NCBI RefSeq assembly: GCF_020165495.1
Contig: NZ_JAIUIE010000007.1
Coordinates: forward strand, 124,001-188,000
From: Mesorhizobium sp. BR1-1-16
GTDB lineage: Bacteria > Pseudomonadota > Alphaproteobacteria > Rhizobiales > Kaistiaceae
Length of the DNA: 64,000 nucleotides
Direction of reading: 5' to 3'
The notes below the pieces were generated by a model. It did not search any database. It saw only the letters and a program-made list of their open reading frames with translations, and was not told the origin of the DNA. The position numbers and the translations under genes were made by a program. Positions 13,057-37,122 of the stretch are shown here, piece after piece. Position 1 is the first letter of the stretch; each line of letters opens with the position of its first letter.

Positions 13057-13063
13057 GATCCGG

Positions 13064-14431: not shown

Positions 14432-14443
14432 GGCCGCTTCCCC

Positions 14444-15850: not shown

Positions 15851-15864
15851 AACTGTCCCTCGCC

Positions 15865-19452: not shown

Positions 19453-19626
19453 GTCGTCAAAATCGTCCTTGCTCGGCATCCTGACCGGCAATTCGTCTCG
19501 CCGCGTTGTGAGGCCGAAGCACGCCAAACAGGACCGGGAGTCTGCCGCTGCCGCGCTGCAAAACAGCTCGCTTCGCGGGCGATTGACAGCCACTGAAGTC
19601 ACCGCTAGCGGTTGGTTGCTGCCCAT

Positions 19627-19638
19627 GTTGCGCCGCAC
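19627..19638. promoter_or_regulatory. Weak copy of the exopolysaccharide-region element
   Basis: GTTGCGCCGCAC, differing at two of twelve positions from the GTTGCACCGCAA element seen upstream of two glycosyltransferase genes at 28882 and 37248. It lies 27-38 bp before the start of the first exopolysaccharide gene. Taken alone this match could be chance. Confidence 0.25.
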
Positions 19639-19664
19639 CAGACCCATGGACGTGAGGACGAAAA

Positions 19665-20705
19665 GTGCCGAATGCAATGCCATCGAGCGAGACGAGGCGA
19701 CAGAGGCGCTGCCTGATTACCGGCACTGCGGGGTTCATCGGGTTTCATGTCGCGCGTCGCCTCTTGGCCAACGGTCACCTGATCGATGGCATCGACGGCA
19801 TGACGCCTTATTACGACGTGAAGCTGAAGCATCAACGGCACGCGATCCTCGCTCGGTCCAACGCCTTTCGCGCCCATGAAGTCATGCTGGAGGATAGCGA
19901 GGCGATCGATCGGATTGCGGGCGAGGCCAAGCCCGACGTGATCATCCATCTCGCCGCTCAAGCCGGCGTCCGCTACAGCCTCGAGCAGCCGCGCGCCTAT
20001 GTCGATGCCAATCTGGTTGGCACCTTCAACGTCATGGAGATTGCCAGGCGCTATGCGCCTGACCATTTCCTGCTGGCCTCGACGAGTTCGGTCTATGGAG
20101 CCAACACATCGATGCCGTTCCGCGAGATCGATCGCACGGACCATCCGATCACGCTCTACGCCGCCACCAAGAAGGCGACGGAAGACATGGCGCATTCCTA
20201 TGCCCATCTCTGGCAAATTCCGACGACGGCGTTCCGCTTCTTCACTGTCTATGGTCCCTGGGGTCGACCGGACATGGCGCTGTTCAAATTCGTCAAGGCA
20301 GGCCTCGCAGGGGAACCGCTCGACGTCTATGGCCATGGCGAAATGCGGCGCGACTTCACCTATATCGATGATCTCGTCGAAGCGATCGTCCGCCTCATCG
20401 ACTGCGCGCCCGTCGCAGGACAGCCGATCGCCGAGTTCGACTCGCTTTCGCCGGCCGCGCCCTATCGCGTCGTCAACATTGCCGGCGGCCAGCCGGTCGG
20501 GCTGATGCCCTTCATCGACGCCATCGAGGCCTCTCTTGATCGCCCGCTTTTGCGCAACATGCTGCCGATGCAGAAGGGGGATGTGCAGGCCACGTTCGCG
20601 GCCCCCGATCTCCTGGAGCGGCTCACGGGCTATCTGCCAGCGACGCCGGTGGCAACCGGCATCGAACGGTTCGTCGAATGGTATCTGGCCACATATGCGA
20701 AATGA
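19665..20705 (+). CDS. lpsL: UDP-glucuronate 4-epimerase (extended SDR)
   Basis: NAD-dependent epimerase of 346 residues converting UDP-glucuronate to UDP-galacturonate. Evidence is the Rossmann glycine motif [14 protein letters not shown] near 19-32, the active-site pair in [10 protein letters not shown] (Tyr-x3-Lys), the SSSVYG strand and the segment [16 protein letters not shown], typical of the uronate epimerase group. The GTG at 19665 has a GAGG ribosome site 8 bases upstream; ATG at 19677 is an alternative. It is the first plus-strand gene of the exopolysaccharide region. With UDP-glucose dehydrogenase at 34127 it would supply UDP-GlcA and UDP-GalA. Other 4-epimerases of this family remain possible. 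Confidence 0.85.
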
Positions 20706-21078: not shown

Positions 21079-22371
21079 ATGTCGACATTGAAGGTTTCCC
21101 GCTCTGTTCTTGAGGGCAAGGTCAGCATCTCCGGCGCCAAAAACAGCGCGCTTCGTCTGCTTGCAGCGACGCTGTTGACCAAGGACCCGGTCACTTTGAC
21201 CAACTATCCTTCGGCGCTGCTCGACGCCCAGATCCATGTCGGCATGCTCGAGGCGCTCGGCAAGAAATGCACCTTGCTTGATGCAGAGACGATCCTCATC
21301 GAAGAAGTAGCCCCGATCAAATCGCACCTGATCTGGCACGACCGCTCGATCCGCAACACCCTGCTGATTCTCGGCGCGCTGACCGCTCGGACCGGTTCCG
21401 GGCGGGTCCCGCTTCCTGGCGGCTGCAAGCTCGGCGATCGCTCTTATGACATCCACGAATTCCTGCTTGGCGAACTCGGCGCGGAAGTTGGCGGTGAAGG
21501 CACCGAACTCTTCGCGAGCGTCGATGGCGGTCGCCTCAAGGGGACGGACATCAAGCTTCGCATCCGCTCGACCGGCGCGACCGAAAATGCGATCCTTTCC
21601 GCCACACTCGCAAAGGGCGTGACGCGGATCTGGAATCCCCATATCCGCCCGGAGATCCTTGATCTTATTGCGCTGCTCCGAAAAATGGGTGCGGTGATCA
21701 CGGTCTATGGCCAGGAGCATATCGAGGTCATTGGCAGCGATGCCCTCGGCGGGGCCACCCATGCCGTGATGCCCGACAACATGGAGGCCATCACCTGGCT
21801 GATCGCCTCGGTCGTCACCGGTGGCGACATCGAGATCTTCAATTTCCCGATGCGCGACCTCGAGGTCGCCATGATCCACCTGAGGGAGAGCGGTGCGCGC
21901 TTCTTCGTCGGCGAGGATAGTCTCATCGTGCGGGGCGGCCGCTGCTATCCGATCGAAATCAGCACCGGTCCCCACCCCGGCATCAATTCTGACGTGCAGC
22001 CTGTGATGGCAGCCTATGCCGCTTGCGCACGCGGCGAGTCGGTCATCGTCGATCTCCGTTTCCCCGGCCGCTATGCCTACGCCGAAGAGATGGCCAAGAT
22101 GGGCGTCAGCTTCGCCGTCGAAGGCAACCTGCTCAAGATATTCGGGGCCGACCGCAAGCTGGTGGGCGCCGAGGTGCGGGCGCTCGACCTCCGGGCTGGC
22201 GCGGCCTTGACGTTGTGCGGCCTGGTTGCCGATGGCGAGACGACCATCACCGAGGCCTGGCAGATCGAGCGGGGCTACAACAACTTCGTCGAGAAGCTCA
22301 ATGCGCTCGGCGGCAATGCGACTATCGAACGCGAACGCAAGAACGCACCCGCCGCTCTGGTCGGCGCTTGA
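21079..22371 (+). CDS. MurA-like UDP-GlcNAc enolpyruvyltransferase paralogue in the exopolysaccharide operon
   Basis: EPSP-synthase-fold protein of 430 residues, the size of MurA. The catalytic positions are kept: K21 and N22 in ISGAKNSAL, C116 in LPGGCKLGD (equivalent to E. coli Cys115), and the general-base Asp in GINSDVQPVM (MurA Asp305 region). The surrounding sequence differs from what I expect of a housekeeping alphaproteobacterial MurA. The neighbours are a flippase, acyltransferase, MurB-like enzyme and glycosyltransferases. I infer a dedicated copy making UDP-GlcNAc-enolpyruvate for polysaccharide rather than peptidoglycan. ATG 21079 lies 8 bases after AGGA; a GTG one codon earlier is possible. 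Confidence 0.85.
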   Translation: MSTLKVSRSVLEGKVSISGAKNSALRLLAATLLTKDPVTLTNYPSALLDAQIHVGMLEALGKKCTLLDAETILIEEVAPIKSHLIWHDRSIRNTLLILGALTARTGSGRVPLPGGCKLGDRSYDIHEFLLGELGAEVGGEGTELFASVDGGRLKGTDIKLRIRSTGATENAILSATLAKGVTRIWNPHIRPEILDLIALLRKMGAVITVYGQEHIEVIGSDALGGATHAVMPDNMEAITWLIASVVTGGDIEIFNFPMRDLEVAMIHLRESGARFFVGEDSLIVRGGRCYPIEISTGPHPGINSDVQPVMAAYAACARGESVIVDLRFPGRYAYAEEMAKMGVSFAVEGNLLKIFGADRKLVGAEVRALDLRAGAALTLCGLVADGETTITEAWQIERGYNNFVEKLNALGGNATIERERKNAPAALVGA

Positions 22372-22408
22372 CACTCGAGGACTATGGGCCGGACGCCGGA
22401 GCGCCCCT

Positions 22409-23728
22409 ATGAGCCTCATCGCCTCGCTGCGCCGCCCGGCAACGAGCACCTCGGAACGCATGTTCCGGGGCATGATGATGCTTGCCTTCGGTGGCATCCT
22501 GGCGCGGGCGATCGGCGTCATCACGGTCCCGATCCTCGCCCGGATCTATACGCCCGCCGACTACGGCATGCTCTCGGTCTACACGTCGATCGTGCAGATG
22601 ATCCTTCCGGTGCTGACGCTCCGCTATGTCGTCGCCATTCCCCTGCCCCGGCGCGATGCGATGGCGTTCAATGTGTTCGTGCTGTCAACACTGCTGATGC
22701 TCGGCTTTTCGATCGTCGTCGGTATCGGCTTGGCCCTGTTCGGTCCCGACCTGCTGCGCCTCGCTTCCGCCGAGAAACTGGCGTCCTGGTGGTGGCTGAT
22801 TCTCGTCGGTGTGCTGACGGCGGGTTTTGCCGAGATCATCGGCAGCTGGGCGACCCGTCACCGTGAATACAAGCTGATGGCGCGCAACAGCGTCACAGTG
22901 ACCGTGCTGGGGGAGAGCATCAAGATCATCTTCGGCCTGCTCGGCTGGCGCCCTTTCGGCCTTCTGGTCGGCCAGATGGCGGTGCAAAGTGGCGGCGCGA
23001 TGAGCTTCACGCGCCATTTCTGGCCGCAGTTCAAGGCCAATTTCCGCAAGGTTTCGCGCAAGCGCCTGGCCTTTGTCGCCCGCTATTATTCGTCCTATCC
23101 GCTGTTCCGCCTGCCCTCGCAGTTCCTGCTGGTCTATTCGATGCAGGCCCCGCTGCTGTTCACAGCAGGGCTCTATGGCGTGGACATTTCGGGACAGCTC
23201 GGCCTCGCATTGATGACGCTGGCCCTGCCGATCAATCTGATCGGACAGGCGATGGGCAAGGCCTACTACGCAGAAGTCGCCAAGATTGGCCGCAAGAACC
23301 CGGCCGAGATCATGCGCCTCACCAAGCACAGTCAGCTGCGGCTGTTGCTGGGCGGCCTCGTTCCGACGCTGGTGCTGATGTTCCTCGGTCCACAACTCTT
23401 CGCCTTTGCGTTTGGCGAAAAATGGCGCGTGGCGGGAGAATTCGCAGCGACGCTCTCAAGCTATACGCTGCTGCAGTTCACGTCAGCGCCGCTGATCCAA
23501 TTGCTCAATATCTTCAATCGCCAGTCCGTATTCCTGATCCTCAACATCATCCGAACGATCGCGGTTTCACTGCTCTTCCATTTCTGCGTCTCGCTGAAGT
23601 TGACCGCGCCGGAATATGTATTCGCCTATAGCATGATCATGACCGTCTTCTATGTCGGCGTGACCGGCTACATCTTCTGGCTGACAATCAATGCAAGCCG
23701 CACGCCCGTTGCCACGAGGTCTCCGTGA
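22409..23728 (+). CDS. Wzx-type oligosaccharide flippase
   Basis: Integral membrane protein of 439 residues with about 12-14 predicted helices in the MOP/polysaccharide-biosynthesis (RfbX) pattern. The N-terminal segment GMMMLAFGGILARAIGVITVPILAR leads into IYTPADYGMLSVY (the first phrase spans about 21-45). It should translocate lipid-linked repeat units across the inner membrane. The ATG at 22409 has GGAG 8 bases upstream; in-frame sequence before it overlaps the murA-like gene and is not membrane-like. Its stop overlaps the next start (GTGA), so translation is coupled. Confidence 0.88.
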   Translation: MSLIASLRRPATSTSERMFRGMMMLAFGGILARAIGVITVPILARIYTPADYGMLSVYTSIVQMILPVLTLRYVVAIPLPRRDAMAFNVFVLSTLLMLGFSIVVGIGLALFGPDLLRLASAEKLASWWWLILVGVLTAGFAEIIGSWATRHREYKLMARNSVTVTVLGESIKIIFGLLGWRPFGLLVGQMAVQSGGAMSFTRHFWPQFKANFRKVSRKRLAFVARYYSSYPLFRLPSQFLLVYSMQAPLLFTAGLYGVDISGQLGLALMTLALPINLIGQAMGKAYYAEVAKIGRKNPAEIMRLTKHSQLRLLLGGLVPTLVLMFLGPQLFAFAFGEKWRVAGEFAATLSSYTLLQFTSAPLIQLLNIFNRQSVFLILNIIRTIAVSLLFHFCVSLKLTAPEYVFAYSMIMTVFYVGVTGYIFWLTINASRTPVATRSP

Positions 23729-24237
23729 ACCCGCTCCGAATGATCGGGAAGCTTCTCCTCGCCGATAACACGACGCGGCTGCGCTGGTATATTCGGCTGA
23801 TGCTCAAGCTCCGTGGGTCGGGCCATCCTCAATTGGCGAGGGTCGTGGCCTTCCGCATCCAGAATCGTTTCGGCGTCTACATCTCTCCAATGGCCGTGAT
23901 TGCGCCCTCTGTCAGCTTTCCTCATCCGACGGGTATCGTCATCGGCGATGGCGTTATCATCGGCGAGCGGGCGAAGATCTATCAAAATGTGACGCTCGGC
24001 GGAGCGAGGGTTGGCGATCAGAAGGCCAACAATTACCCGACCATCGGACAAGACACCGTCCTGTTTGCCGGCGTCGTCGTGGTCGGCAAGGTCACTGTCG
24101 GCGCCAACTGCATCGTTGGCGCCAACGCCGTCGTTCTCTCGGATGTCCCCGATGGCGCCGTAGCGGTGGGGTCGCCCGCCCGCATCGTGCGCCGCCGCGA
24201 AATCGAAACCGTTGCGCAGGCGAGCAGTGCGCTGTGA
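23725..24237 (+). CDS. CysE/LbH-type hexapeptide acyltransferase
   Basis: A 170-residue protein with left-handed beta-helix hexapeptide repeats through about 52-155, for example IVIGDGVIIGERAKIYQNVTLGG, resembling serine O-acetyltransferases. The segment FPHPTGIVIGDG and the closing GSPARIVRRRE are typical. Full CysE proteins have an N-terminal helical domain of about 140 residues that is missing here, so an acetyl transfer to a polysaccharide sugar is more likely than cysteine synthesis. GTG start, 4-bp overlap with the flippase stop. Confidence 0.82.
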   Translation: MNPLRMIGKLLLADNTTRLRWYIRLMLKLRGSGHPQLARVVAFRIQNRFGVYISPMAVIAPSVSFPHPTGIVIGDGVIIGERAKIYQNVTLGGARVGDQKANNYPTIGQDTVLFAGVVVVGKVTVGANCIVGANAVVLSDVPDGAVAVGSPARIVRRREIETVAQASSAL

Positions 24238-24295
24238 GCCCGATGACAGCAACCCCTCAAGTTCCTGCGGCGATGATCGGGAGAGTGCCACGGCC

Positions 24296-25270
24296 GTGAC
24301 TCTGACGAAGGACAAAACGGTCAATTGGATCGACGCGCTGGAAGAGACCTTCCCCGGCGTGATTTCGCGCGACGTTTCGCTCGCCACGATCAGCCGTTGG
24401 CGTATCGGCGGGAACGCCGATGCGGTCGCGCGTCCACACGATCTCGATGAACTCGCGCGCATGCGGCGGTATCTCCATGAGAACGGCGTTCCGCATGTCG
24501 TGATCGGGGCGACCACCAATCTCCTCTTCGCCGATGAGGGACTTCGTGTCCTGGCCTTGCAGATCGGCAGGGAATTCGCCCGTATCGACCTGCGGGACAA
24601 TGAAATGGTGTGCGGAGCAGGCGCCTGGGTGCCCGGGGTGGCTCGCCAGGCCATGCTCGCGGGCCTGACGGGCATAGAGCACACCTGCGGCATTCCCGGC
24701 ACGGTCGGCGGGCTCGTCTGCATGAATGGCGGCAGCCAACGGCGCGGGATTGGCGAGGCCATCGTCGAGGTCGTCTCGGTCGACGAGCGGGGCCGCCTGA
24801 TCCGCCGCAGCCGGGAGGAATGCGGCTTCGCCTATCGTCGGTCTATCTTCCAGACCAATGGCGAGATCGTAGCTGAAACGACGTTGACGCTCGATCGATC
24901 CCGCCCAAAGGGCGACATCCGGCGCGCGATGATCGGGATCCTGTCGGACCGACGCCGCAAGTTTCCTCAGAAACTCCCAAACTGTGGGTCGGTATTTGTG
25001 AGCAACCCGGCAATGTACGCCGAGGTCGGCCCGCCTGGCGCGGTCATCGAACGCCTCGGCTTCAAGGGCCGGAAAATCGGCGGCGCCCAGGTATCACCGC
25101 AGCACGCGAACTTCATCGTCAACAACGGTTCGGCCAGGGCGCAGGACGTCCAGACGCTGATCGGCGAGATCAAGGCCGCCGTGTTGGCGGCAACGGGCTA
25201 TGACATGGAGGTCGAGGCCAGGTTTGTCCGTCCGGACGGGATCTTGTTGCCAGCCGACCGTATACAGTGA
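24296..25270 (+). CDS. MurB-like UDP-N-acetylenolpyruvoylglucosamine reductase paralogue
   Basis: FAD-binding MurB family protein of 324 residues. Visible are the FAD-binding WRIGGNADAVARP and GATTNLLFADEG, the diphosphate loop GIPGTVGGLVCMNGG, the YRRSIF motif, the catalytic serine in CGSVF (S232, E. coli Ser229) and a C-terminal acidic VEARF. All active-site features appear intact. Normal murB lies in the division and cell-wall cluster, whereas this one sits with a MurA-like gene in a polysaccharide operon. The pair would convert UDP-GlcNAc to a UDP-muramic-acid-type sugar. The only good in-frame start is GTG 24296, with GGGAGA 11 bases upstream, so the start is uncertain. Confidence 0.85.
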   Translation: MTLTKDKTVNWIDALEETFPGVISRDVSLATISRWRIGGNADAVARPHDLDELARMRRYLHENGVPHVVIGATTNLLFADEGLRVLALQIGREFARIDLRDNEMVCGAGAWVPGVARQAMLAGLTGIEHTCGIPGTVGGLVCMNGGSQRRGIGEAIVEVVSVDERGRLIRRSREECGFAYRRSIFQTNGEIVAETTLTLDRSRPKGDIRRAMIGILSDRRRKFPQKLPNCGSVFVSNPAMYAEVGPPGAVIERLGFKGRKIGGAQVSPQHANFIVNNGSARAQDVQTLIGEIKAAVLAATGYDMEVEARFVRPDGILLPADRIQ

Positions 25271-25286
25271 TGATCGAGAAAGTCCG

Positions 25287-26354
25287 ATGAGCCCCCTCGC
25301 CCAACAAGCGCCTGCCGCGCCGAAGGTATCCGTCGCCTGCGCTTGGTATAACCGCGCAGATTATATTCAAGATACTATCGACAGCCTCCTCGCCCAGAAT
25401 TTTGACAGCTTCGAAGTCGTCGTCGTCAACGATGGCAGCTCGGACGTGCGGGTTGCAGAAATCCTGGATGGGTATGACGATCCGCGTCTCCGCGTCATCC
25501 ACCAGGGTAACCAAGGCTTCACAAGAGCCATAGCCCGGGCTGTCAGCGAGGCGCGTGGTGCGTTCATCGCCGTGCAGGGCTCAGGCGATCTTTCGCTTCC
25601 CGGCCGCCTCGCCAAGCAGGCAGCCCATCTCGATGCGCATCCGGACCAGATCGGCGTCGCCAGCTTCCGCGAGAATGTCGTCATTGGCGGCGATCGTGAC
25701 GGTCAGCGCACAATCGGACGACCGGAAAAGTCTGTGATCGACCGGAATACGCTGCTCGATCATATCGGCAGTCCGCTGAACCATGGTGAAGTTATGTTTC
25801 GGCGCGACGTCTATCAGGTTGCCGGTGGCTATCGTCCCGTATTTCATCTGGCCCAGGACATGGATCTTTGGCTGCGGATGACGCGATTTGGTGTATTTGG
25901 AGTTGTCGAAGAGGTTCTGTACCAGCGGCGCGTGTTCGACGATGGCGTCAAGGGCCGCGTCGACAAGACCCTCGCTCAGACCAAGTATTCGCAGATGGCC
26001 AAGTCGTGTGCGCGGGAGTTTGACCGGAACGGGGCGGATATCGTCGATCTTTTCGGTCTCGAAGCCCCGCTCTTTCGTGGCGCGGATGCCCTCGCCGCAA
26101 AAGCGACAGCCAAAGCGGCGCTCAAATATCTGCGCAATGGCCTGCCAGACGAGGCGCGTGTTCTGGCCGCACTCGCTTGGCGAGAGAGACCGGGCCCGCT
26201 CCCGGCTCTAGCCATGCTGCTGTCGGCGACGCACGGGATGCCCGGATCGGCTTGGCTGGTCGGCTTGCTGCCGATCCAGGACGACAGCGAGACACGTCCA
26301 CTGCTTCCCAAAGCCAGCAAACCAGCACAACGCCAATCGGCTGACATCGCATGA
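25287..26354 (+). CDS. Family 2 glycosyltransferase
   Basis: GT-A fold glycosyltransferase of 355 residues. The N-terminal domain has VSVACAWYNRADYIQDTIDS and VVVVNDGSSD (nucleotide-sugar binding). The usual DXD position is QGSGDLSLPGRL, a noncanonical GSGD. A later HLAQDMDLWLRM matches the ED/QD general-base helix of GT2 enzymes. The C-terminal 100 residues are Ala-rich and not assigned. ATG 25287 has GAGAA upstream, 16 bp after the murB-like stop; the next gene overlaps by 4 bp. The donor and acceptor cannot be read from sequence. Confidence 0.87.
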   Translation: MSPLAQQAPAAPKVSVACAWYNRADYIQDTIDSLLAQNFDSFEVVVVNDGSSDVRVAEILDGYDDPRLRVIHQGNQGFTRAIARAVSEARGAFIAVQGSGDLSLPGRLAKQAAHLDAHPDQIGVASFRENVVIGGDRDGQRTIGRPEKSVIDRNTLLDHIGSPLNHGEVMFRRDVYQVAGGYRPVFHLAQDMDLWLRMTRFGVFGVVEEVLYQRRVFDDGVKGRVDKTLAQTKYSQMAKSCAREFDRNGADIVDLFGLEAPLFRGADALAAKATAKAALKYLRNGLPDEARVLAALAWRERPGPLPALAMLLSATHGMPGSAWLVGLLPIQDDSETRPLLPKASKPAQRQSADIA

Positions 26355-27541
26355 GGCCGGAAGTCCCGGCTGATCGCCGGCGCATCCTGATGCTCATGTC
26401 GGGTACCGAGGGCTATGGTGTTCGCCGCGTCTGGGAAGGCCTGATCCGCGGTTTCGCCGAGCGGGGCTGCACCATCACCATAGCGCTCCTCGACCAAACC
26501 GTTGCCGAGACCTGGCGCAGGGAGGCGCCGGCGGCTGCGATCTTTGCAGCGCCCAAGCAATTCCGGGCGGAGTTCAAGAGCGGAGGTCTGGCCAAGCTGG
26601 GGGGGCTCGTGCGGCGCAGCGTCCAGCAGGTAAAGCTGTCGAGCTGGCTGAGGGGGATCATACGACGCCAGAATATCGGGAGCGTCATCGTCCAGAGCCC
26701 GCTCGATGTCACTCTCGCAGGACTCGGCGCGCTTAATACCGGCGCGCGTGTATTCTGGATGATGCCAAATGCGATCAGCGACGGATATCCCCTCGATTTG
26801 AACCGCAGGATCTACCGCCTGGCCTTTCATCGGCTGGGCGTCATGCCGCTCGCGAACTCCGCCTATACGGACGCGACGCTCGGCGATGGCGACTTTCCCC
26901 GTCGTGTCGTTCACCTCGGCACCAATCTCGATCAGTTCCGGCCGGATGCCCAGACTTCGATCAGGAGAGCGGATCTGGGGATTCCGGAGCAGGCGCCGCT
27001 TCTCGGCCTCTTTGCGCGGCTACTGCCCGAGAAGGGCCAGAGCATCTTGATAGAGGCCTTGGCAGAAGCCGATCCCACTATTCATGTCATGATCTGCGGT
27101 GGGCCGCTCGAAAGCGAATATGCGCGCGCTATGATCGCCCGCGCTGGAGAACTCAGCCTGACTGGCCGGATCCACTGGCTCGGACCGAAGGCCGACATCG
27201 TGCCTTACTATGCGTTGGCTGATGTCGTGCTCAATACGCGGGTGGACCCTGAGCCCTTCGGAATGTCGATCATCGAGAGCATGGCTATGCAGCGACCCGT
27301 GCTTGCACATCGCGCTGGGGGTCCTCAGGAAACGATTATAGATGGCACGACCGGATGGCTGGTCGACGCTCCGACGAAACAGGCGTTCGCAGCAGGCTTG
27401 GCCCGCATGATGGCGGATCGTTATCGTTGGCCGGAAATGGGTCGGGCTGCCAGAGCCCATGTGGAGACCCACTTCTCGGAGGGGGCTATGCTCGACCGGC
27501 TCGAAAACGCGATGGGCCTATCTGCCTCGACCAAGCCGTAG
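26351..27541 (+). CDS. Family 4 glycosyltransferase
   Basis: GT-B fold glycosyltransferase of 396 residues. The N-terminal Rossmann domain begins RILMLMSGTEGYGVRRVWEG. The C-terminal domain has LGLFARLLPEKGQSILIEAL and the GT4 E-x7-E element in RVDPEPFGMSIIESMAMQRP. It overlaps the preceding GT2 gene by 4 bp (ATGA) and ends the plus-strand run that starts at 21079. The stop lies 11 bp from the stop of the convergent glycosyltransferase. Confidence 0.88.
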   Translation: MRPEVPADRRRILMLMSGTEGYGVRRVWEGLIRGFAERGCTITIALLDQTVAETWRREAPAAAIFAAPKQFRAEFKSGGLAKLGGLVRRSVQQVKLSSWLRGIIRRQNIGSVIVQSPLDVTLAGLGALNTGARVFWMMPNAISDGYPLDLNRRIYRLAFHRLGVMPLANSAYTDATLGDGDFPRRVVHLGTNLDQFRPDAQTSIRRADLGIPEQAPLLGLFARLLPEKGQSILIEALAEADPTIHVMICGGPLESEYARAMIARAGELSLTGRIHWLGPKADIVPYYALADVVLNTRVDPEPFGMSIIESMAMQRPVLAHRAGGPQETIIDGTTGWLVDAPTKQAFAAGLARMMADRYRWPEMGRAARAHVETHFSEGAMLDRLENAMGLSASTKP

Positions 27542-27552
27542 ACTGACATTTA

Positions 27553-28716
27553 TCAAGCGACGACCTCGCGGGGCATGTCGCGCTTCGTGATGACGTCAAC
27601 CCCATCGAGAATTCCCGTTGCGGCGACCGCAGGGGTAAAGCCCGCCATATGGCCGATGCAGGCGCGTGCGGTGGCCTCTGGATCGGCGAAGGTACTCACC
27701 GCCAGCAACATCCGGTCCGCGAGCGCGGCGGTGTCGCCCCATGGATGGGCGAAGCCCGTCACGCCGTCGACAACCAATTCGGGCACACAGCCGCAGCGTT
27801 CAGACACGACAACCGGGCACCCAAAGGAAAGAGCCTCGTTGACGACCAGCCCCCAAGGCTCGCTCAGGCTCGGCAGCACCAGTGCGGTTGCCTTTTGATA
27901 TTCCTCGGTGAGGTCTTGATCAAACTTGGAGCCGGCAAATTCGACCATTTCGGCGATGCCGAGCCGCTCCGCCTCCGCGCGGAGCGCGCTCTCTTCAGGG
28001 CCCTTCCCCACGATTGCCAGCCTGGCTTTCGGGAGCGTCTTGCACGAGATGGCGAACGCCTTGAGCAAGGTGTCTAGGCTCTTTTCAGCCGCGAGACGGC
28101 CGACATAGAGAAACCGCGGCACCTCGGCCTTCGCCATTGCGGCGACGCGGGCGTTGAGCGCCCCTTCAGGCGTGTAGTCGCGCGGCAGCGCGGCGGCCTG
28201 GCGGCGCTGGAAGATCCGCTCCTTCGGAACGCCGTGATAGATCAGATATTCCCGGCTGCGCTCGCCATAGCAGAACACCCCACTGCACATCGAAAAGAAC
28301 AGCCGTTTTGCGGCACTCTTCAGGCCGGACTGAGGGTTATCGTTCAAGGTCGAATCGCAGAAGACAGCGAACCTTTTGCCGCGCAGCTTCAGCGTCAGGG
28401 CCTGCAGCCAATATTCCGGCCGCTCGAACCCGGCAAGGATCACCAGGTCCGCATGCGACTTGAAGGTCATGCTGATCAGCTTGCGGAAGAGCTCGACGCG
28501 CGGCACGGCCGCATAGTTGCCTTGGAAAAGCACGTCGTAGTCGTAATCGTGCCAAGCCCTGTCTACGGGCGACAGCACCGCCCGATCGGCCGCCGTCTCG
28601 GCGATCTGATGGACGAACACGTCGATGTCACGGGCGGCGGACAGGCGATGAAGCGCTGAAAACACGCCGGCCTTGTAGCGGGACCACAAGAGATTGTGCC
28701 AGATGACGAGCTTCAT
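27553..28716 (-). CDS. Family 4 glycosyltransferase (convergent)
   Basis: GT-B fold enzyme of 387 residues. The C-terminal half contains PRFLYVGRLAAEKSLDTLL, a nucleotide-sugar-binding segment, and the E-x7-E motif in LPSLSEPWGLVVNEALSFG. The N-terminal half, MKLVIWHNLLWSRYKAGVFS, resembles Wzx/Wzy-pathway sugar transferases acting on lipid-linked oligosaccharide. It is transcribed alone, against the preceding operon, from the 426-bp region that also serves the WcaF-like gene. Confidence 0.87.
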   Translation of the reverse strand: MKLVIWHNLLWSRYKAGVFSALHRLSAARDIDVFVHQIAETAADRAVLSPVDRAWHDYDYDVLFQGNYAAVPRVELFRKLISMTFKSHADLVILAGFERPEYWLQALTLKLRGKRFAVFCDSTLNDNPQSGLKSAAKRLFFSMCSGVFCYGERSREYLIYHGVPKERIFQRRQAAALPRDYTPEGALNARVAAMAKAEVPRFLYVGRLAAEKSLDTLLKAFAISCKTLPKARLAIVGKGPEESALRAEAERLGIAEMVEFAGSKFDQDLTEEYQKATALVLPSLSEPWGLVVNEALSFGCPVVVSERCGCVPELVVDGVTGFAHPWGDTAALADRMLLAVSTFADPEATARACIGHMAGFTPAVAATGILDGVDVITKRDMPREVVA

Positions 28717-29142: not shown

Positions 29143-29757
29143 ATGACCGAGAAGATTATGGCGGAGACCTCCCCCGACGCCGCCGCCATCGACCCGCTGA
29201 CACATCGTTATCAGGACCTCTCCCGCTTTCGCCTTGAAGCAGGCTTCCGCGGGCGCTCCGCCTTGGTCACCCAGCTCTGGTGGCTGGTCCAGGCGCTGCT
29301 CTTCAACCCTTCTCCGCAATTTCTTTACGGCTGGCGCCGCCTCCTTCTTCGCGTCTTCGGCGCAAAAATCGGTGATCGGGTTCTGATCCGCCCCTCGGTC
29401 CGCGTCACCTATCCATGGCGACTTGAGATCGGCGATAGCTCTTGGATCGGCGACAATGTTGAGCTCTATACCCTCGGCCGCATTACGATCGGAGCCGATG
29501 CCGTCGTTTCGCAACGGAGCTATCTGTGCACAGGCTGGCACGACCGAGCCGACCCGAGCTTCGCCATGCGCACTGCGCCGGTCGTCGTTCAGGATCAGGC
29601 GTGGGTGGCGGCAGACGTCTTTGTCGCTCCCGGCGTCACCATCGGCCGCGGCGCGGTGGTGGGGGTCCGATCATTGGTTCTGAAGGACATCCCGCCCGGA
29701 ATGGAAGCCAACGGCAATCCGGCGAAAATCCGAGGACCGCGACCGACGACCGCCTGA
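29143..29757 (+). CDS. WcaF-type hexapeptide O-acetyltransferase
   Basis: A 204-residue acetyltransferase of the colanic-acid WcaF family. Left-handed beta-helix repeats occupy about 85-190 (for example WRLEIGDSSWIGDNVELYTL, ITIGADAVVSQRSYLCTG). The catalytic histidine is probably in TGWHDRADPSF, and the family ending PPGMEANGNPAKIRGPRP is present. It probably adds acetyl groups to the polysaccharide using acetyl-CoA. Single gene, transcribed away from the glycosyltransferase at 27553. Confidence 0.85.
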   Translation: MTEKIMAETSPDAAAIDPLTHRYQDLSRFRLEAGFRGRSALVTQLWWLVQALLFNPSPQFLYGWRRLLLRVFGAKIGDRVLIRPSVRVTYPWRLEIGDSSWIGDNVELYTLGRITIGADAVVSQRSYLCTGWHDRADPSFAMRTAPVVVQDQAWVAADVFVAPGVTIGRGAVVGVRSLVLKDIPPGMEANGNPAKIRGPRPTTA

Positions 29758-30053: not shown

Positions 30054-31469
30054 TCAGATACGACGGCGTGGTAACGATGCGCCGCGGTGAGCCGCCGACA
30101 GAGGCCCAGCGGGCAGAGGCCTGGTCGGCAAGGGAACATCGCGCCGCACAAGCGCGCGCTGAAGCCCTGGATCGAGCGTTGCCTGTTGTGGCTCGGCGGT
30201 CTTGCGCCCTCGATAGTACAAAAGCGCCCCTACTCCGACGATATCGGCAATCCACAACGGCTTGAGGCCATTGCGCAGCGGATAGGCAAAGAGCTGAATC
30301 AGACCGAGGAGGATTAGAAATCCGCAAGCGAGCCCTATATATTGATTTCTCTTGAGTACATTCTTGTAAATTCTGATGGATATCCAAAAGAACAGAACGA
30401 ATGCCAACAGAAAGACAATTCCAAAATTATAGAGTTCCACATAGCCAGAATACGGCACATAACGGGTTATGCGCACCTGGCTGACCCGGCTGATGCTCTG
30501 GAAATTATCAATGACGGAGGGCAGAGGAGAAAAACTGAGAATCTTGTAAAGCAGCGGGTAGACGGGTTCGCCGACCAGGCTCTCGGCCACGACGAAGATG
30601 CCCTCAGTCAAGTTGAGCATCAGCGACGACGCCGTATCGAGCAGGTCACTCCCGACCGCCCTCACAAAAGCATCAAAGATCGTACTGATCCCATGGGTGC
30701 CGGAACCGCGGCCGGCTAGCGCAGACGTCAATGAAAAGACCGCCAGCACCGCGCTCAGTGAACGCAGAAAGAGATGTGTCCTCCGTCCGACGACCGAAAG
30801 CACGACGAAGAACGCAACGGGCGGCAGCAGCGCAACTCTTTGGTGGGCACCAATATAATAAAACGTCCCCATTAAAGCGACTACGCCGAAGAATATCCCC
30901 CACGCCGTTCTTGACAGCGAGATATTGATAGCCGCGAGGACTGCCGCAAGGATAGCGGCGAACGGCATCAGACTGAGGAGAAAACCTACCCCCGAGACCG
31001 TTACCACATCGTTCGGCCGGGTCATCAGGAGATAAACCGAATTTGACCAGACGATCGACCAGTCGAGAATTAATACCATGATGAATACATAGATCACCAT
31101 GAAAACGCCGAAACCAAAATTCACCGCAGGAAGCAGCCGATCGATCTGTCGAACGTCGATTTGCTGCGCCGCGAATTTGGTCGATTGATGTGTCCGCATG
31201 TCCTTGGCGAATATGGCCATTACTGCAGACGAGATCGCAAAATATACAGAAATAACAGGCATAAAGTAAGTTATATATCCACCGCGCGTATAATATTGCA
31301 GAAATGGATATTCAAGGATCTCCCACTTCACAGCGATCAAAGAGATCTGCGCAACGAACAGATAGACTACCGCGAGCGTCGGGAAGGGTGCGAATCCAAA
31401 GCGAGACACAGAGAGCGAGATGTACGCGATCTGGATCGCGAGCAGCACCATGACGACGGCTGTTTCCAA
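30054..31469 (-). CDS. Wzy-type polysaccharide polymerase (O-antigen polymerase-like)
   Basis: Integral membrane protein of about 471 residues with roughly 10-12 helices and a longer hydrophilic loop in the second half (about 310-370), the usual plan of repeat-unit polymerases. Family-level identity is weak, as is normal for Wzy proteins. I chose the TTG at 31469 because AGGA lies 7 bases upstream and the protein then begins directly with a membrane helix. An ATG at 31583 would overlap the upstream gene by 26 bp. The coding DNA (about 30300-31450) is clearly richer in A+T than its neighbours, suggesting horizontal acquisition. Confidence 0.65.
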   Translation of the reverse strand: METAVVMVLLAIQIAYISLSVSRFGFAPFPTLAVVYLFVAQISLIAVKWEILEYPFLQYYTRGGYITYFMPVISVYFAISSAVMAIFAKDMRTHQSTKFAAQQIDVRQIDRLLPAVNFGFGVFMVIYVFIMVLILDWSIVWSNSVYLLMTRPNDVVTVSGVGFLLSLMPFAAILAAVLAAINISLSRTAWGIFFGVVALMGTFYYIGAHQRVALLPPVAFFVVLSVVGRRTHLFLRSLSAVLAVFSLTSALAGRGSGTHGISTIFDAFVRAVGSDLLDTASSLMLNLTEGIFVVAESLVGEPVYPLLYKILSFSPLPSVIDNFQSISRVSQVRITRYVPYSGYVELYNFGIVFLLAFVLFFWISIRIYKNVLKRNQYIGLACGFLILLGLIQLFAYPLRNGLKPLWIADIVGVGALLYYRGRKTAEPQQATLDPGLQRALVRRDVPLPTRPLPAGPLSAAHRGASLPRRRI

Positions 31470-31557
31470 GACATCTTCCTGTCGCGTTGGGCGTCCAGCT
31501 GGCTGCCGGACTTGGCGCTTATTTTCGCATGGGCGGCTAGCCGTTGAAACCCTTCGA

Positions 31558-33591
31558 TCAACGTGAACCGACTTGATATCCATCCCGATCGGACGTCGGC
31601 ACGCCGGTCTTGATCCGCAATGCGCCCTGCCCATCCACCCATAAATGGTGATCGCCAAGCACCAGGTGGCCTCCGTCCCAACCCCCGGAGCCAAGCGTGC
31701 GGACATTGTCGGAGGCCACTGGCGCGTTACCGTGATAGATGCGGGCAAGCGATATAGCGCAAGCGGGAGACAGGCCATTAGGCCGGACGACCACGCGCCA
31801 GCCTGCCGCGCTACCCGACTCCGGAAAGACAAAAGGAATTCGCATCCGGCGCCATTCCGTGTCGACGCGGATCCTTCGGCGCAGCGCCAGGACGCGGGTG
31901 TCGCGATGAACGATCGAGACGGTAAAGATCGAGGGTGCGCTGTTGTCCATCGATCTGACGTCGAGATCGAGCCAACTGGCGCGGCCACTCATGACCGAAT
32001 CAAGTTCTTCGTCGAGCACGGGTTTGGGTCTGCCCCCGACTGGAACGGAGTCGCCAGCAGTGCCTTCGCTTGCCGCGCTACCCGTCGCGGCTGACAATTC
32101 GACGAAGTGATCTCGTCCGCGATCGATGCTCAGCAAAGGTATGAAACCGAAATCATCACTGCTTGATGGATGCAAAAGAGCCGACCTCGCACCGGGCATC
32201 ATCGACATCGGATCGAGCGTAACGCCAACGGCGCGGTTCGAAATATCACGCGAGAACGGGATCGAGAACGAACCGAGGTCGACAGTCCACTTCGGGTCGG
32301 AGGGACCGGTCAGCCCGCTGTACCCCGGTGGCGAGACGAACTCGCAAAGATAGGTGTGAATGCCGCCGCCGAAATAATTGCGCGTGCACTCAAGCGCGTT
32401 CACCAAGGGTGTGAAGCTCTTGATGACCGGCGACGTCATCTTGGACACACCGTCGAAGCGGTTCTCTCGAAGGACGATACCGCGGGCAAACGCTTTCTTG
32501 TCGATCCAAGCCTCGGCCGGTTTGCGAGCGGGACGATCCGCGTTGCCGTCGATGTCAGGGGCGATAAGGATCCTGGGCTGGTCGGGCGAGAGATTCTCGT
32601 TTCCGAATTTGTTCTGCGCGATCACGATGCCCGCGCCCGAGTTCACATCCATGACACTCGGCACGATCCAGATATCGGCGGCCCGGATGTGCTTCCTGAA
32701 CGCCAGGAAATCGTTCTTCATGATGTTGACCGAGCCACCCAGCCGAGGGCCGAGCTTCAGGTGGTAGGCATTGAGCAGGAAGGAGCAATCCTCGATCGTG
32801 ACTGAATCGAGATACCCGCCCCAGGCGATTCCAATCGTGCCGCCGGCGACCGATCCAAAGAAGAAGCAGGTTCGAACCTTGAGATAAGGATGGTCGGTCG
32901 CGTTGTTCCCGATTGCACAGACCGAGTAGTCGGCGAAATTGCAATCCTCGAAAACGTGCGAGCCGGTAACGTTCTGGCCGCTGTTGGTATACGTGACGGC
33001 GCCCCGTCCGCCGACGAAATTGAGATTGGAGACGCGGGAATTCAGGATGACGCCGCTCGCCGTCAGGAAGTAGATATCGCCGTCGATCTGGATCGTTGAG
33101 GATCCAGGGCTGCCTGACAGAACAACATTGCCGCCGTTCTGGACCAGGCCTGCCCCCGAATAGCGGTAGCGGCCTGGCGGGAAGAACAGGGGCATCCCCG
33201 TCTCGATGAGATTGATGATGCCCTTGGCCGCCGGATACCGCGTTTGGGTACAGTAGGCATGGGCCGCCTCGATCGCTCCAGTATCATCCGCAACGCCGTC
33301 GCCCACAGCTCCGAACATACGGACATTCGGCTCGAGTTCGGAAACCCGCCAGCGGGCGCCATCAGCGGAGACCAGGTGGCCTTCGGTCTCCGCTCGGACA
33401 TAACGGGCCGCTCCGCCATCCGCCGGACGATGATAGCCGGCGGTCTGGAACCAGGCGAGGTCGGGAGGCAGATTGATAGACTTCAGCGAGGCTGCCGTAT
33501 CGATGACGGGCATGCTGCGGACATTCCCGCCCTCATCCAGCCCGACTAGAGCGGCCAGCGTGGCAGTCGGCTTGTCGGACAGCTTTGCCAT
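31558..33591 (-). CDS. Tailspike-like right-handed beta-helix protein (pectate lyase 3 superfamily)
   Basis: A 677-residue protein. The signature VRMFGAVGDGVADDTGAIEA (about 90-109) marks the pectate-lyase-3 domain of phage tailspikes and polysaccharide depolymerases. A beta-helix rich in Asn, Gly and Val rungs follows (about 130-420), then a beta-sandwich-like C-terminal half. The final residues, HHLWVDGQGALRIKTG and on, resemble ends of phage tail proteins. No signal peptide is visible. No phage genes are nearby; it sits between a polymerase and a small Tat-signal protein inside the polysaccharide cluster. It may bind, trim or modify the polymer. The catalytic residues cannot be assigned. 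Confidence 0.75.
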   Translation of the reverse strand: MAKLSDKPTATLAALVGLDEGGNVRSMPVIDTAASLKSINLPPDLAWFQTAGYHRPADGGAARYVRAETEGHLVSADGARWRVSELEPNVRMFGAVGDGVADDTGAIEAAHAYCTQTRYPAAKGIINLIETGMPLFFPPGRYRYSGAGLVQNGGNVVLSGSPGSSTIQIDGDIYFLTASGVILNSRVSNLNFVGGRGAVTYTNSGQNVTGSHVFEDCNFADYSVCAIGNNATDHPYLKVRTCFFFGSVAGGTIGIAWGGYLDSVTIEDCSFLLNAYHLKLGPRLGGSVNIMKNDFLAFRKHIRAADIWIVPSVMDVNSGAGIVIAQNKFGNENLSPDQPRILIAPDIDGNADRPARKPAEAWIDKKAFARGIVLRENRFDGVSKMTSPVIKSFTPLVNALECTRNYFGGGIHTYLCEFVSPPGYSGLTGPSDPKWTVDLGSFSIPFSRDISNRAVGVTLDPMSMMPGARSALLHPSSSDDFGFIPLLSIDRGRDHFVELSAATGSAASEGTAGDSVPVGGRPKPVLDEELDSVMSGRASWLDLDVRSMDNSAPSIFTVSIVHRDTRVLALRRRIRVDTEWRRMRIPFVFPESGSAAGWRVVVRPNGLSPACAISLARIYHGNAPVASDNVRTLGSGGWDGGHLVLGDHHLWVDGQGALRIKTGVPTSDRDGYQVGSR

Positions 33592-34126: not shown

Positions 34127-35473
34127 CTACTCCGCAGCGGCCTCGAGAACTTCACCGTGATCATCGGCGCCGCGGCCGACAGAAGTGTAGCTGAAGCCGT
34201 GCCGCGCCATGTCCTCGCGACTATAGACATTGCGTAGGTCGACCATCACCGGAGCGGTCATCGCCTCCTTCAGGCGTCCGAAATCCAGAGCCCGGAATTG
34301 ATCCCACTCGGTGATCAGCACGAGTGCATCCGCACCCGCCGCCGCCTCGTAGGGGCTTGCCGCATAGGAAACTCGCTCGTCGAGCAGCGGCTTCGCCGCC
34401 TCCATTCCAACCGGGTCATGCGCAACGATCCTTGCGCCCGCATCCTGCAGGGCCTGGATGATCGACAGCGACGGCGCCTCGCGCATGTCGTCCGTACGCG
34501 GCTTGAAGGTCAGCCCGAGAACCGCGATCACCTTGCCACGGACGTCACCGCCGCAGGCCTGGACAACCTTGCGCGCCATCGCCCGCTTGCGCTGGTCGTT
34601 GATCGCGACCGTCGTCTCGATTAGCCGGATGGCACTTCCGTGGTCCTGCGCCGTCTTGACCAGCGCCAGCGTATCCTTCGGGAAGCAGGAGCCGCCATAG
34701 CCGGGCCCCGCATGCAGGAATTTCGAGCCGATCCGGTTGTCCAGCCCGATGCCACGCGACACGGCCTGCACATCCGCCCCTACCTGCTCGCAGAGATCCG
34801 CGATCTCGTTGATGAAGGTAATCTTCATCGCCAGGAACGCGTTCGCCGCATATTTGATCAGTTCCGAGGAACGGCGCGAGGTGAAGACGATCGGCGAGTA
34901 GTTGAGATAGAGCGGACGGTAAACCTCGACCATCGGCTCGCGCGCCCGCTCGTCCTCGATCCCGACCACGATCCGATCCGGCTTCTTGAAGTCGGCGATC
35001 GCCGCGCCCTCGCGGAGGAATTCAGGATTTGAAACAACCGCGACATCCGCCTCGGGATTGGTCTCGCGAATGATCCGCTCGACCTCGTCGCCTGTCCCGA
35101 CTGGAACTGTCGACTTCGTCACGACAACGGTGAAACCCTTCATCGCCAGCGCGATCTCGCGCGCCGCCGCGTATACATACGACAGGTCCGCATGTCCGTC
35201 GCCGCGACGCGACGGCGTGCCGACAGCAATGAAGACCATGTCCGCATCTGCAACCGGCTCGACGAGATCCGTCGTGAACGAAAGGCGTCCAGCCGCGACG
35301 TTCTCCGCTACAATCCCGTCGAGACCCGGCTCGTAAATCGGAATTTCGCCCCGCTTCAAAGCCTCGATCTTGCCGGCAGCCTTGTCGATGCAAACGACGC
35401 TATGCCCGAAATCGGCAAAGCAAGCCCCCGAAACCAGCCCGACATATCCGGACCCGATCATCGCTATCTTCAC
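34127..35473 (-). CDS. ugd: UDP-glucose 6-dehydrogenase
   Basis: NAD-dependent enzyme of 448 residues oxidising UDP-glucose to UDP-glucuronate. The N-terminal Rossmann motif GSGYVGLVSGACFADFG is followed by the substrate loop YEPGLDG. The catalytic cysteine is in GPGYGGSCFPKDT (near residue 260), and the C-terminal UDP-binding domain has LGLTFKPRTDDMREAPS. The product feeds the epimerase at 19665. A 527-bp upstream region separates it from the next gene in the same direction, so it has its own promoter. Confidence 0.96.
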   Translation of the reverse strand: MKIAMIGSGYVGLVSGACFADFGHSVVCIDKAAGKIEALKRGEIPIYEPGLDGIVAENVAAGRLSFTTDLVEPVADADMVFIAVGTPSRRGDGHADLSYVYAAAREIALAMKGFTVVVTKSTVPVGTGDEVERIIRETNPEADVAVVSNPEFLREGAAIADFKKPDRIVVGIEDERAREPMVEVYRPLYLNYSPIVFTSRRSSELIKYAANAFLAMKITFINEIADLCEQVGADVQAVSRGIGLDNRIGSKFLHAGPGYGGSCFPKDTLALVKTAQDHGSAIRLIETTVAINDQRKRAMARKVVQACGGDVRGKVIAVLGLTFKPRTDDMREAPSLSIIQALQDAGARIVAHDPVGMEAAKPLLDERVSYAASPYEAAAGADALVLITEWDQFRALDFGRLKEAMTAPVMVDLRNVYSREDMARHGFSYTSVGRGADDHGEVLEAAAE

Positions 35474-36000: not shown

Positions 36001-37122
36001 TTAAATCAACGAGCGATAAGTCTTGAGCCATTCTTCAGCGATCGCCCTCGGCGAGTAGCTTTCATCAGCAAGATGTTTGGCATTCGAGGACATTTTTCGC
36101 CAAGCTGGTTCATCAAGGGCGATCGCCTTGCGCAGGGCAGATGCGATCTCGTCGGGCGACCAACCGCTGGGTATTGCGCTGCCAGTGGCAAATCCAATCG
36201 GCAGATTGCATTCGTTGGACATGATGGTGGGCACGGATGCCGCCCACGCCTCGATGATTGCCATGGGCAGGCCTTCGCTGAAGGATGGCAGGACCAGAAA
36301 ACGGGCGCTCTGCAGGAATTCTTCCTTCGCCTCTCCGAAGAGCGGCCCCACGAAATCGATCGAAGGGTCAGCGGCATCAGCAATATCGGCTCGGAGACTC
36401 GCCACGTGGTCGTCGTCGCCCCAGCCCGCGATTTTGAGGACGAAGTTCTCGATACCAGGCTCCCCGCGCAGGGCGGACCAGGCCTTTACGAGCCCGCCGA
36501 CATTCTTCTTGGGATGAATGCGGCCGAGATAGATGAACGCCTTCCGCGCTGCTGTCGGCTGGGCGTCACCCTCGGGCGACTTGACGCTGTTGGCGATCAC
36601 CTTGATGTCGGCGCGAGGCGCGGCTTTGGCAATGTCGAGACGCTCGGCCTCGGTCAGCGCATGGAAGAGACGAGCTCGTTTCCAGCTCTTGTTTTCATAG
36701 ACCGCCTTCGCCACCGCCTTCTTTGCTCGACCGCGCGACAGGATCCAGGGATCCAGCATGCCATGAGGCGAAATCACATAGGGTCGGCCCGAAGCGGAAG
36801 CCCAGCGCTCGCCAGCCATCGAAGGATACATCCAGATGCCATGGAGATGCAGGAGGTCGAGACGCTCACGGCGAAGAGCGCCCAGCATCGCGGGGGCATA
36901 GCCAAATATCGTCGGCCCTTTTATCGGCGAGGTGACAACCTTGATCCCTTGCAGACGCCACGCATCCTCGGCTGTGAACTCGTCCTCAAGGCCAAAGACG
37001 ACAGGTTCGATTTCGCCTGTCGCCAGCATCGCCTTTGCGTGGTGCAGCACGGCCTCATAGACACCACCGCCGGCCCGCGATACCCGCGCGGTCAGAAGTC
37101 CGAGGCGTATTTTCGAAGTCAT
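36001..37122 (-). CDS. Family 4 glycosyltransferase
   Basis: GT-B fold glycosyltransferase of 373 residues. The acceptor domain begins KIRLGLLTARVSRAGGGVYE, followed by LLHLHGIWMYPS and SPHGMLDPW, a pattern found in exopolysaccharide WcaI/EpsF-like transferases. The donor domain has AFIYLGRIHPKKNVGGLVKA and the E-x7-E element in LPSFSEGLPMAIIEAWA. It is the rightmost polysaccharide gene and is flanked by long noncoding stretches, so it is probably transcribed alone. Confidence 0.88.
   Translation of the reverse strand: MTSKIRLGLLTARVSRAGGGVYEAVLHHAKAMLATGEIEPVVFGLEDEFTAEDAWRLQGIKVVTSPIKGPTIFGYAPAMLGALRRERLDLLHLHGIWMYPSMAGERWASASGRPYVISPHGMLDPWILSRGRAKKAVAKAVYENKSWKRARLFHALTEAERLDIAKAAPRADIKVIANSVKSPEGDAQPTAARKAFIYLGRIHPKKNVGGLVKAWSALRGEPGIENFVLKIAGWGDDDHVASLRADIADAADPSIDFVGPLFGEAKEEFLQSARFLVLPSFSEGLPMAIIEAWAASVPTIMSNECNLPIGFATGSAIPSGWSPDEIASALRKAIALDEPAWRKMSSNAKHLADESYSPRAIAEEWLKTYRSLI

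Follow-up and report, generated by a model that had tools for sequence, protein, structure and literature searches.

Why would a gene cluster of the surface-polysaccharide type hold its own copies of MurA and MurB, enzymes otherwise associated with peptidoglycan? The question is raised by a stretch of 64,000 nucleotides from Mesorhizobium sp. BR1-1-16 (contig NZ_JAIUIE010000007.1, source positions 124001-188000, from a genome of 5.2 Mb in 29 contigs), here called the window, in whose positions the genes below are given. The two genes in question encode the following products:

21079..22371, plus strand: MurA2, enolpyruvyl transferase of a polysaccharide-cluster clade, ATG start (Pfam, NCBIfam, tree, AlphaFold model)
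24296..25270, plus strand: MurB2, flavin adenine dinucleotide (FAD)-dependent enolpyruvyl-sugar reductase of a polysaccharide-cluster clade (Pfam, NCBIfam, tree, model)

The answer proposed here, to which a probability of roughly 0.7 is assigned, is that MurA2 and MurB2 form a dedicated pair within a mobile surface-polysaccharide module and would produce a uridine diphosphate (UDP)-activated sugar bearing a lactyl ether, an activity predicted from sequence comparison. The lactyl-ether chemistry of the pair is likely.

Domains, catalytic residues and predicted structures

MurA2 matches the Pfam family EPSP_synthase (1.1e-67) and scores 349 bits with TIGR01072, below the murA equivalog cut-off of 392.7. 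It keeps K22, N23, R91, C115, R120, D123, H125, D231, D305, R331, D369, L370, R371 and R397 (E. coli numbering), a set that includes the catalytic residues. The catalytic residues on this list, including Lys22-Asn23, Cys115, Asp305, Arg120 and Arg397, are conserved in all 17 sequences of the clade. MurB2, with a start best read as the GTG at 24296 following a GGGAGAG box, matches MurB_C (2e-26) and scores 181 bits with TIGR00179, above the cut-off of 144.5; it carries the FAD-binding and MurB_C domains, the serine that acts as general acid, and the arginine and glutamate of the carboxylate site. All 17/17 sequences of the MurB clade have the Ser, the Arg and the Glu, and 16/17 have the Tyr. 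The preliminary description of this DNA had taken the catalytic residues of both proteins to be intact (Lys-Asn, Cys and Asp of MurA; Ser232, Tyr-Arg and Glu of MurB), which the alignments bear out, the GTG start also reproducing the numbering of Ser232.

The AlphaFold model of MurA2 has a predicted local distance difference test (pLDDT) score of 90, with residues 116-120 below 50, and that of MurB2 has a pLDDT of 93. When the MurA2 model was compared with the PDB, MurA chains filled the first 43 ranks (template modelling (TM) score 0.87-0.92, 32-37% identity), followed by NikO and AroA; the closest solved chain to MurB2 is 1hsk. NikO, in which the MurA fold serves a different acceptor, is a distant solved relative of MurA2 (114 bits) and as such gives some support to the idea that MurA2 serves an antibiotic or nucleoside pathway, or else is a drug-insensitive copy of MurA. 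The best MurA chain, however, scores 250 bits, over twice as much as NikO, the neighbouring genes are polysaccharide genes, and Cys115, the target of fosfomycin, is kept in 17/17 sequences; either role is rejected as very improbable.

Housekeeping murA and murB genes elsewhere

The reading that the window pair are the housekeeping genes is rejected because the genome has a canonical murA and a division-cluster murB elsewhere. The preliminary description had named the whole-genome search for a second murA and murB as a check, and both came to light when it was run, so that this check did not refute its view of the pair. With the murA profile, a canonical murA on contig C12 scored 546.8 bits (above the cut-off), the window copy 348.9 bits and two weak matches 34 and 30 bits; with the murB profile there were two matches, the window copy at 180.9 bits and a copy on contig C26 at 167.8 bits. 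The copy on C26 is the murB of the division cluster: Pfam assigns the ten open reading frames around it, in order, to Glycos_transf_4 (MraY type), Mur ligase, FtsW/RodA, GT28 (MurG type), Mur ligase, MurB, D-Ala ligase, FtsQ, FtsA and FtsZ, the gene names being those that we presume from this order of domains.

The same arrangement was found among other carriers. In a survey of 13 host genomes (G266 and the 12 to which loci L007-L018 led), a murA above the cut-off is present in 12, and the thirteenth, Albimonas, has a murA split over two contigs. A complete additional MurA, scoring 322-382 bits and thus below the TIGR01072 cut-off, is present in 11/13, as is a complete additional MurB in 11/13; the genomes that hold no complete additional copies are those of Halomonas sulfidaeris (pieces) and a Selenomonad (none). 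In H. sulfidaeris (L016, 8658-10871) a MurA/MurB pair of the same kind is broken into several frames and was left out of the trees and counts. The Selenomonad locus (L018, a 36% MurB match) was dropped as a member of the module, since this genome has only one MurB, and was kept as a housekeeping sequence (L063) in the MurB tree. The Rhodospirillales metagenome-assembled genome (MAG) Bin51 carries, besides housekeeping copies, two polysaccharide-type MurA/MurB pairs that belong to different MurA sub-clades (G487:C31, 8024-10330, locus L096; and L011).

Separate clades, distribution and probable transfer

In the MurA tree, 17 polysaccharide-cluster sequences, consisting of 14 from a sub-clade designated EPS2 (the window included) and three from a sub-clade designated EPS3, separate from 23 others with support of 100/100; the EPS2 sub-clade alone is supported at 99/95. 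The 23 others comprise 12 housekeeping copies from the hosts and the window's own genome, those of E. coli and Ruegeria, a Priestia murA, and the eight best matches in the class, which are presumed to be housekeeping. In the MurB tree, 17 cluster sequences separate from 14 housekeeping sequences at 99/98, and EPS2 and EPS3 members are intermingled. MurA2 of the window has 34-38% identity to 12 housekeeping MurAs, and MurB2 has 29-37% identity to eight housekeeping MurBs.

Both genes are sparsely distributed in genome samples of the class, order and phylum, which overlap and in which scoring was limited to 4-5 candidates from each genome. At the level of its sub-family, MurA2 occurs in 2/385 genomes of the class (942 and 571 bits; the next match has 273), and MurB2 at its own level (limit 1e-55) occurs in the same two of 385, the seed included. 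Leaving the seed aside, this co-occurrence amounts to one genome coinciding with one in 384, a small sample, and the neighbourhood evidence given below is stronger. Separate clades that co-occur in the class sample, the other check that the preliminary description had named, were recovered for both families. With a limit of 1e-110, MurA2 was found in 2/397 genomes of the order and 1/398 of the phylum, the latter being the window's own, and it was absent from the ten other genomes of the genus listed in the order scan. The matches of MurB2 in 13 other genomes of the genus were weak, six over the whole length at 31-34% identity and seven in short pieces at 26-40%.

Closer relatives were found further afield. 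A scan of named genomes with MurB2 returned 12 loci, of which 11 have 52-64% identity (in Ancylobacter, Albimonas, Vreelandella/Halomonas, Rhodospirillales MAGs, HdN1, Ectothiorhodospira and Mangrovicoccus) and the remaining one, of the Selenomonad, 36%. A scan of plasmids gave 95 records with MurA matches, seven of them at 61-69% identity, and 20 records with MurB matches, eight of them at 46-56%; all seven high-identity MurA records are among the eight MurB records, and the eighth, from Haematobacter, has a MurA of another sub-clade directly upstream. Alphaproteobacteria and gammaproteobacteria are mixed within EPS2 (for example, Ectothiorhodospira with Rhodospirillales at 96/95), which together with plasmid carriage points to horizontal transfer; the MurA2/MurB2 module is best read as one that moves between lineages.

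Organization of the cluster

The cluster is bounded on one side by pyruvate dehydrogenase genes and a DEAD-box helicase (11-19.5 kb) and on the other by a lol-type ABC transporter and a class II tRNA synthetase (37.6-41 kb). On the plus strand, the order is a short-chain dehydrogenase/reductase (SDR), MurA2, a flippase, an EpsC-like acetyltransferase, MurB2 and glycosyltransferases of the GT2 and GT4 types; further GT4 enzymes, a second hexapeptide acyltransferase, a polytopic protein, a pectate-lyase-like protein and Ugd follow, mostly on the minus strand. The preliminary description had placed the pair with a flippase, an acyltransferase and two glycosyltransferases, and these neighbours are as it stated (flippase, hexapeptide acetyltransferase, GT2, GT4). 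The Ugd and the epimerase from which it had derived uronic acids are likewise present, the latter as an SDR of the epimerase/dehydratase type. Besides MurA2 and MurB2, the features are:

19665..20705, plus strand: SDR of the nucleoside diphosphate (NDP)-sugar epimerase/dehydratase type (Pfam Epimerase 1.1e-53; homologue in 8/17 loci)
22409..23728, plus strand: Wzx2, predicted Wzx-type flippase of the module, with an inferred ATG start (homologue in 10/17 loci)
23725..24237, plus strand: EpsC/CysE-like hexapeptide acetyltransferase (NCBIfam EPS_EpsC 124 bits, under the cut-off of 150; PDB matches are serine acetyltransferases; 6/17 loci)
25287..26354, plus strand: GT2 glycosyltransferase (Pfam Glycos_transf_2 1.3e-22; homologue in 8/17 loci, plus genome G653)
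26351..27541, plus strand: GT4 glycosyltransferase (Pfam Glycos_transf_1 2.1e-28)
27553..28716, minus strand: GT4 glycosyltransferase (Pfam Glycos_transf_1 1.7e-35)
29143..29757, plus strand: second hexapeptide acyltransferase (Pfam Hexapep 7.1e-11)
30054..31473, minus strand: polytopic membrane protein (no Pfam match; ten hydrophobic segments from residue 172 of the reading frame on; 5' end uncertain)
31558..33591, minus strand: pectate-lyase-like protein (Pfam Pect-lyase_RHGA_epim 4.1e-07)
34127..35473, minus strand: Ugd, UDP-glucose 6-dehydrogenase (TuaD model 515 bits, below the cut-off of 700; NDP-sugDHase 453 bits, above cut-off)
36001..37122, minus strand: GT4 glycosyltransferase at the edge of the island (Pfam Glyco_trans_1_4 1.3e-19)

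A flippase and glycosyltransferases thus stand in one cluster, as in Wzx/Wzy-type clusters. Wzx2 itself has no Pfam match, and has 42% identity to the product of a Vreelandella locus (L009:6921-8252) that Pfam assigns to Polysacc_synt_3; the polytopic protein is possibly the Wzy polymerase. The SDR fell below every cut-off of the 25 NCBIfam families compared. Among solved structures it is closest to 5u4q (367 bits; recorded as dTDP-glucose 4,6-dehydratase), followed by 6zl6 ('Epimerase domain-containing protein'), both of which we take to be UDP-uronate 4-epimerases, and the SDR is a putative UDP-glucuronate 4-epimerase. The pectate-lyase-like protein may be a polysaccharide-processing enzyme, one that could act on a polymer with uronates by cleavage or epimerisation.

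Comparison with relatives of the same genus marks the core of the cluster as an island. In the comparison with 50 kb of G001, identity is 86-88% over window positions 1608-19352, 37606-43982 and 46099-49565 and 83% over Ugd; with 19.5 kb of G006 it is 84% over Ugd and 83% over positions 37433-40002. Between 19352 and 34127 there is no DNA match longer than 150 bases in the stretches fetched from these two genomes. The core of the cluster is missing from the compared stretches of the relatives, and Ugd is older at the site. The guanine plus cytosine content is 62.0% at 19500-27541 and 60.0% at 27553-37122, compared with 64% in the outer flanks, a small difference. Beside the lol genes of G001 (C12:1-20000) there are 20 kb that have no DNA match longer than 150 bases to the window, so that the content of this site may vary within the genus.

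Recurrent neighbours of the pair

Neighbouring genes were surveyed at 17 loci in 19 stretches, chosen for holding a MurA or MurB of the clades, so that the presence of both in 17/17 is by choice. Searches with the proteins of the window (E 1e-15, over 45% of the query), the window counted, found homologues of Wzx2 at 10 of the loci, of GT2 and the SDR at 8 each, of Ugd at 7 and of the EpsC-like protein at 6; these counts are lower bounds, the stretches being of different lengths and some ending at contig ends, and they were identical when homologues from L009, L014 and L029 were added to the queries. The aligned parts of MurA and MurB are 2-368 bases apart in 14/17 loci, and within 0.4 kb in four further Rhizobium plasmid records; in the window the pair is not adjacent, the flippase and acetyltransferase intervening (1927 bases between aligned parts). 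On a Qingshengfaniella plasmid, among proline and sugar-acid genes, the unit consists only of the acetyltransferase, MurA2, MurB2 and GT2. The existence of this minimal unit suggests that these four proteins act as a working set, within which GT2 is a candidate transferase of the lactyl sugar. Clusters of some relatives hold genes of the Wzy_C, bacterial sugar transferase (Bac_transf), Poly_export or Wzz/kinase types. In Vreelandella (L009, 17602-19412), an aldolase-like protein of the HpcH/HpaI type and a 2-hydroxyacid dehydrogenase, which have homologues in L010, may supply another acidic constituent of the polymer.

These surroundings bear on the idea that the pair is a back-up or stress-specific set for peptidoglycan, comparable to the double MurA of Gram-positive bacteria. 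The fold and catalytic residues are indeed those of MurA and MurB, but the location in polysaccharide clusters and on plasmids, the sparse distribution, the separate clade with an equally separate MurB partner, and the frequent presence of a specific GT2 and flippase alongside make such a role improbable.

Several observations weigh against a dedicated pair in a polysaccharide module. The pair is on different contigs in Mangrovicoccus and approximately 15 kb apart in Albimonas, and the HdN1 locus and the third pair of Bin51 show none of the five other module genes. The tree program warned that the long MurA branches to EPS3 and to the housekeeping sequences could meet falsely. Ugd, which lies about 9 kb from the pair on the opposite strand, adjoins the same flanks in two same-genus relatives that have no MurA2; being present there, it is not specific to the pair. 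Among the 13 open reading frames scanned (19665-37122), there is no initiating sugar-phosphate transferase or gene of the Wza/Wzc type; the initiating transferase and export genes may lie elsewhere in the host genome. Finally, G653, a genome of the same order (completeness 100, 90 contigs) that came to light once the set of 17 loci was closed and is counted apart from them, has Wzx2, MurA2 (63%) and GT2 (48%) in a row (L105, G653:C12:26000-45900, 8404-12010) with no MurB2, and the single MurB match of this genome lies elsewhere and is 32% identical to MurB2. MurB2 is therefore not always present where MurA2 and GT2 are. Either the housekeeping MurB of G653 reduces the product, or the polymer keeps the enolpyruvyl group, or the gene is missing from the assembly; the first of these would favour UDP-N-acetylglucosamine (UDP-GlcNAc) as the acceptor.

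Identity of the acceptor sugar

If the pair is dedicated to a polysaccharide, its acceptor may be UDP-GlcNAc, giving UDP-N-acetylmuramic acid (UDP-MurNAc), or another UDP-sugar. In 14/14 EPS2 MurAs, the replacements A92N, S93T, V163T, A186H, E188R, R232N, P303N, E329P, N330G, F332Y, H334Y and H394Q are found at positions that are invariant or nearly so among the 23 MurAs of housekeeping or presumed housekeeping type; E188, E329, N330, F332 and H334 are identical in all 23, two Bacillota included. Position 327 is Val or Ile in the 23 and Arg in 17/17 cluster sequences. The MurA2 of G653 carries each of the EPS2 replacements, whereas the EPS3 MurAs share only part of them and do not have Arg at 161 and 188. 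MurB2 has the motifs NCGSVF-SNP and MNGGSQR in place of the GGSTF-NP and MNAGA or similar of eight housekeeping sequences. N23, D305 and V327 are, we presume, residues that touch the sugar in MurA crystal structures. Ligand contacts in the docking tables of one study include positions 161, 163, 188, 232, 233, 303 and 327 (PMC11628175). Changes were not enriched at the contact positions of that study (5/17 conserved contact positions changed, compared with 28/110 other conserved positions; Fisher p 0.77), in a test that left aside 161 and 327, at which housekeeping sequences vary; because of this lack of enrichment, the acceptor-side changes may be ordinary long-branch divergence.

Two versions of the dedicated pair can be weighed with these data. 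In one, which the preliminary description had favoured and which is a special case of the dedicated pair, MurA2 and MurB2 make ordinary UDP-MurNAc for a polysaccharide containing N-acetylmuramic acid, the second copies uncoupling supply or regulation from peptidoglycan. The preserved catalytic residues, the p value of 0.77 and the established occurrence of MurNAc in surface polysaccharides (PMC4515632, PMC7247339) are consistent with this, and MurA2 of G653 would work with no MurB2 if the housekeeping MurB reduced normal enolpyruvyl-UDP-GlcNAc. The replacement of residues invariant in housekeeping MurAs (E188R, E329P, N330G, F332Y and H334Y in 14/14 EPS2 sequences), Arg327 in 17/17, the changed motifs of MurB2 and the UDP-MurNAc pool that housekeeping enzymes would already provide tell against it, and its chances fall a little short of even. 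In the other version, the pair has switched substrate: from UDP-sugars made by the cluster it produces a UDP-lactyl sugar that is not UDP-MurNAc, with a uronic acid (as in a 3-O-lactyl uronic acid) or a neutral hexose as the likeliest sugar. The loss of the acidic E188 and E329 across EPS2, the gain of Arg at 161, 188 and 327, the presence of several of the changed positions among the docking-table contacts, the recurrence of Ugd (7/17 loci) and SDR (8/17), and the existence of lactate-bearing, uronate-containing exopolysaccharides (PMC5852497) point in this direction; the contact positions are not enriched for changes, R187 and R232 are lost as well, the EPS3 sequences do not have Arg at 161 and 188, and the link to uronic acids is conjectural, Ugd not being pair-specific in the genus. 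A substrate switch is therefore a tentative proposal, with the odds against it.

Proposed pathway

By homology, MurA2 would transfer enolpyruvate from phosphoenolpyruvate to a hydroxyl group (predicted to be O-3) of a UDP-sugar by the Cys115/Asp305 chemistry of MurA, and MurB2 would reduce the resulting enol ether to a lactyl ether with nicotinamide adenine dinucleotide phosphate (NADPH) and FAD. A glycosyltransferase of the cluster, most likely GT2, may then place the UDP-lactyl-sugar onto a lipid-linked repeat, diverting it from the peptidoglycan route; Wzx would flip the repeat, and a Wzy-type polymerase would join the repeats into an acidic exopolysaccharide that may also contain uronic acids. 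The acceptor sugar, the role of GT2, the substrate of the epimerase and the nature of the polymer are the presumptive parts of this scheme.

Comparison with known systems

The chemistry of MurA and MurB is summarised elsewhere (PMC12844806, PMC6801904). The preliminary description knew of no well-described pathway of the kind proposed. As regards genes this holds, for a literature search of open PMC texts yielded no paper on a murA/murB pair in a polysaccharide cluster and none naming genes dedicated to lactyl-ether sugars; as regards chemistry it does not, for muramic acid is already reported from the O-antigens of Yersinia ruckeri and Proteus penneri and the core lipooligosaccharide of Psychrobacter arcticus (PMC4515632) and from the capsule of Vibrio vulnificus ATCC 27562 (PMC7247339), and lactate from deepsane, a uronate-containing exopolysaccharide of Alteromonas macleodii (PMC5852497). 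Lactyl-ether sugars, muramic acid included, occur in O-antigens, capsules and marine exopolysaccharides; the module supplies candidate genes for making them (MurA2, MurB2 and GT2) and a sequence signature that might allow polysaccharides of this type to be predicted from genome data. Should the acceptor be a UDP-sugar other than UDP-GlcNAc, the module would show how an essential chemistry, with which the committed part of peptidoglycan synthesis begins in two steps, has been redirected; within the reach of the literature search, no genetic route to the lactyl-ether sugars of bacterial exopolysaccharides would have been described before it. Muramic acid is also read as an indicator of bacterial biomass, and a muramic-type sugar that is not part of the cell wall would bear on that use.

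The MurNAc-containing polysaccharides of Y. ruckeri, P. penneri, V. vulnificus and P. arcticus resemble the predicted product in having a lactyl-ether sugar outside peptidoglycan; they are known as chemistry, the available parts of their accounts naming no dedicated murA or murB genes, and the product of the window module is a predicted one. Deepsane, with lactate substituents on a uronic-acid exopolysaccharide, resembles the proposed polymer; the available parts of its account contain no biosynthetic genes. NikO, with 25% identity to MurA2, serves the pathway of an antibiotic (nikkomycin), unlike the polysaccharide setting of MurA2, and we know of no MurB partner for it. The housekeeping MurA and MurB share with the window pair their fold and catalytic residues; the pair differs from them by its low sequence identity, its separate clades, its changed acceptor-side residues and its polysaccharide context.

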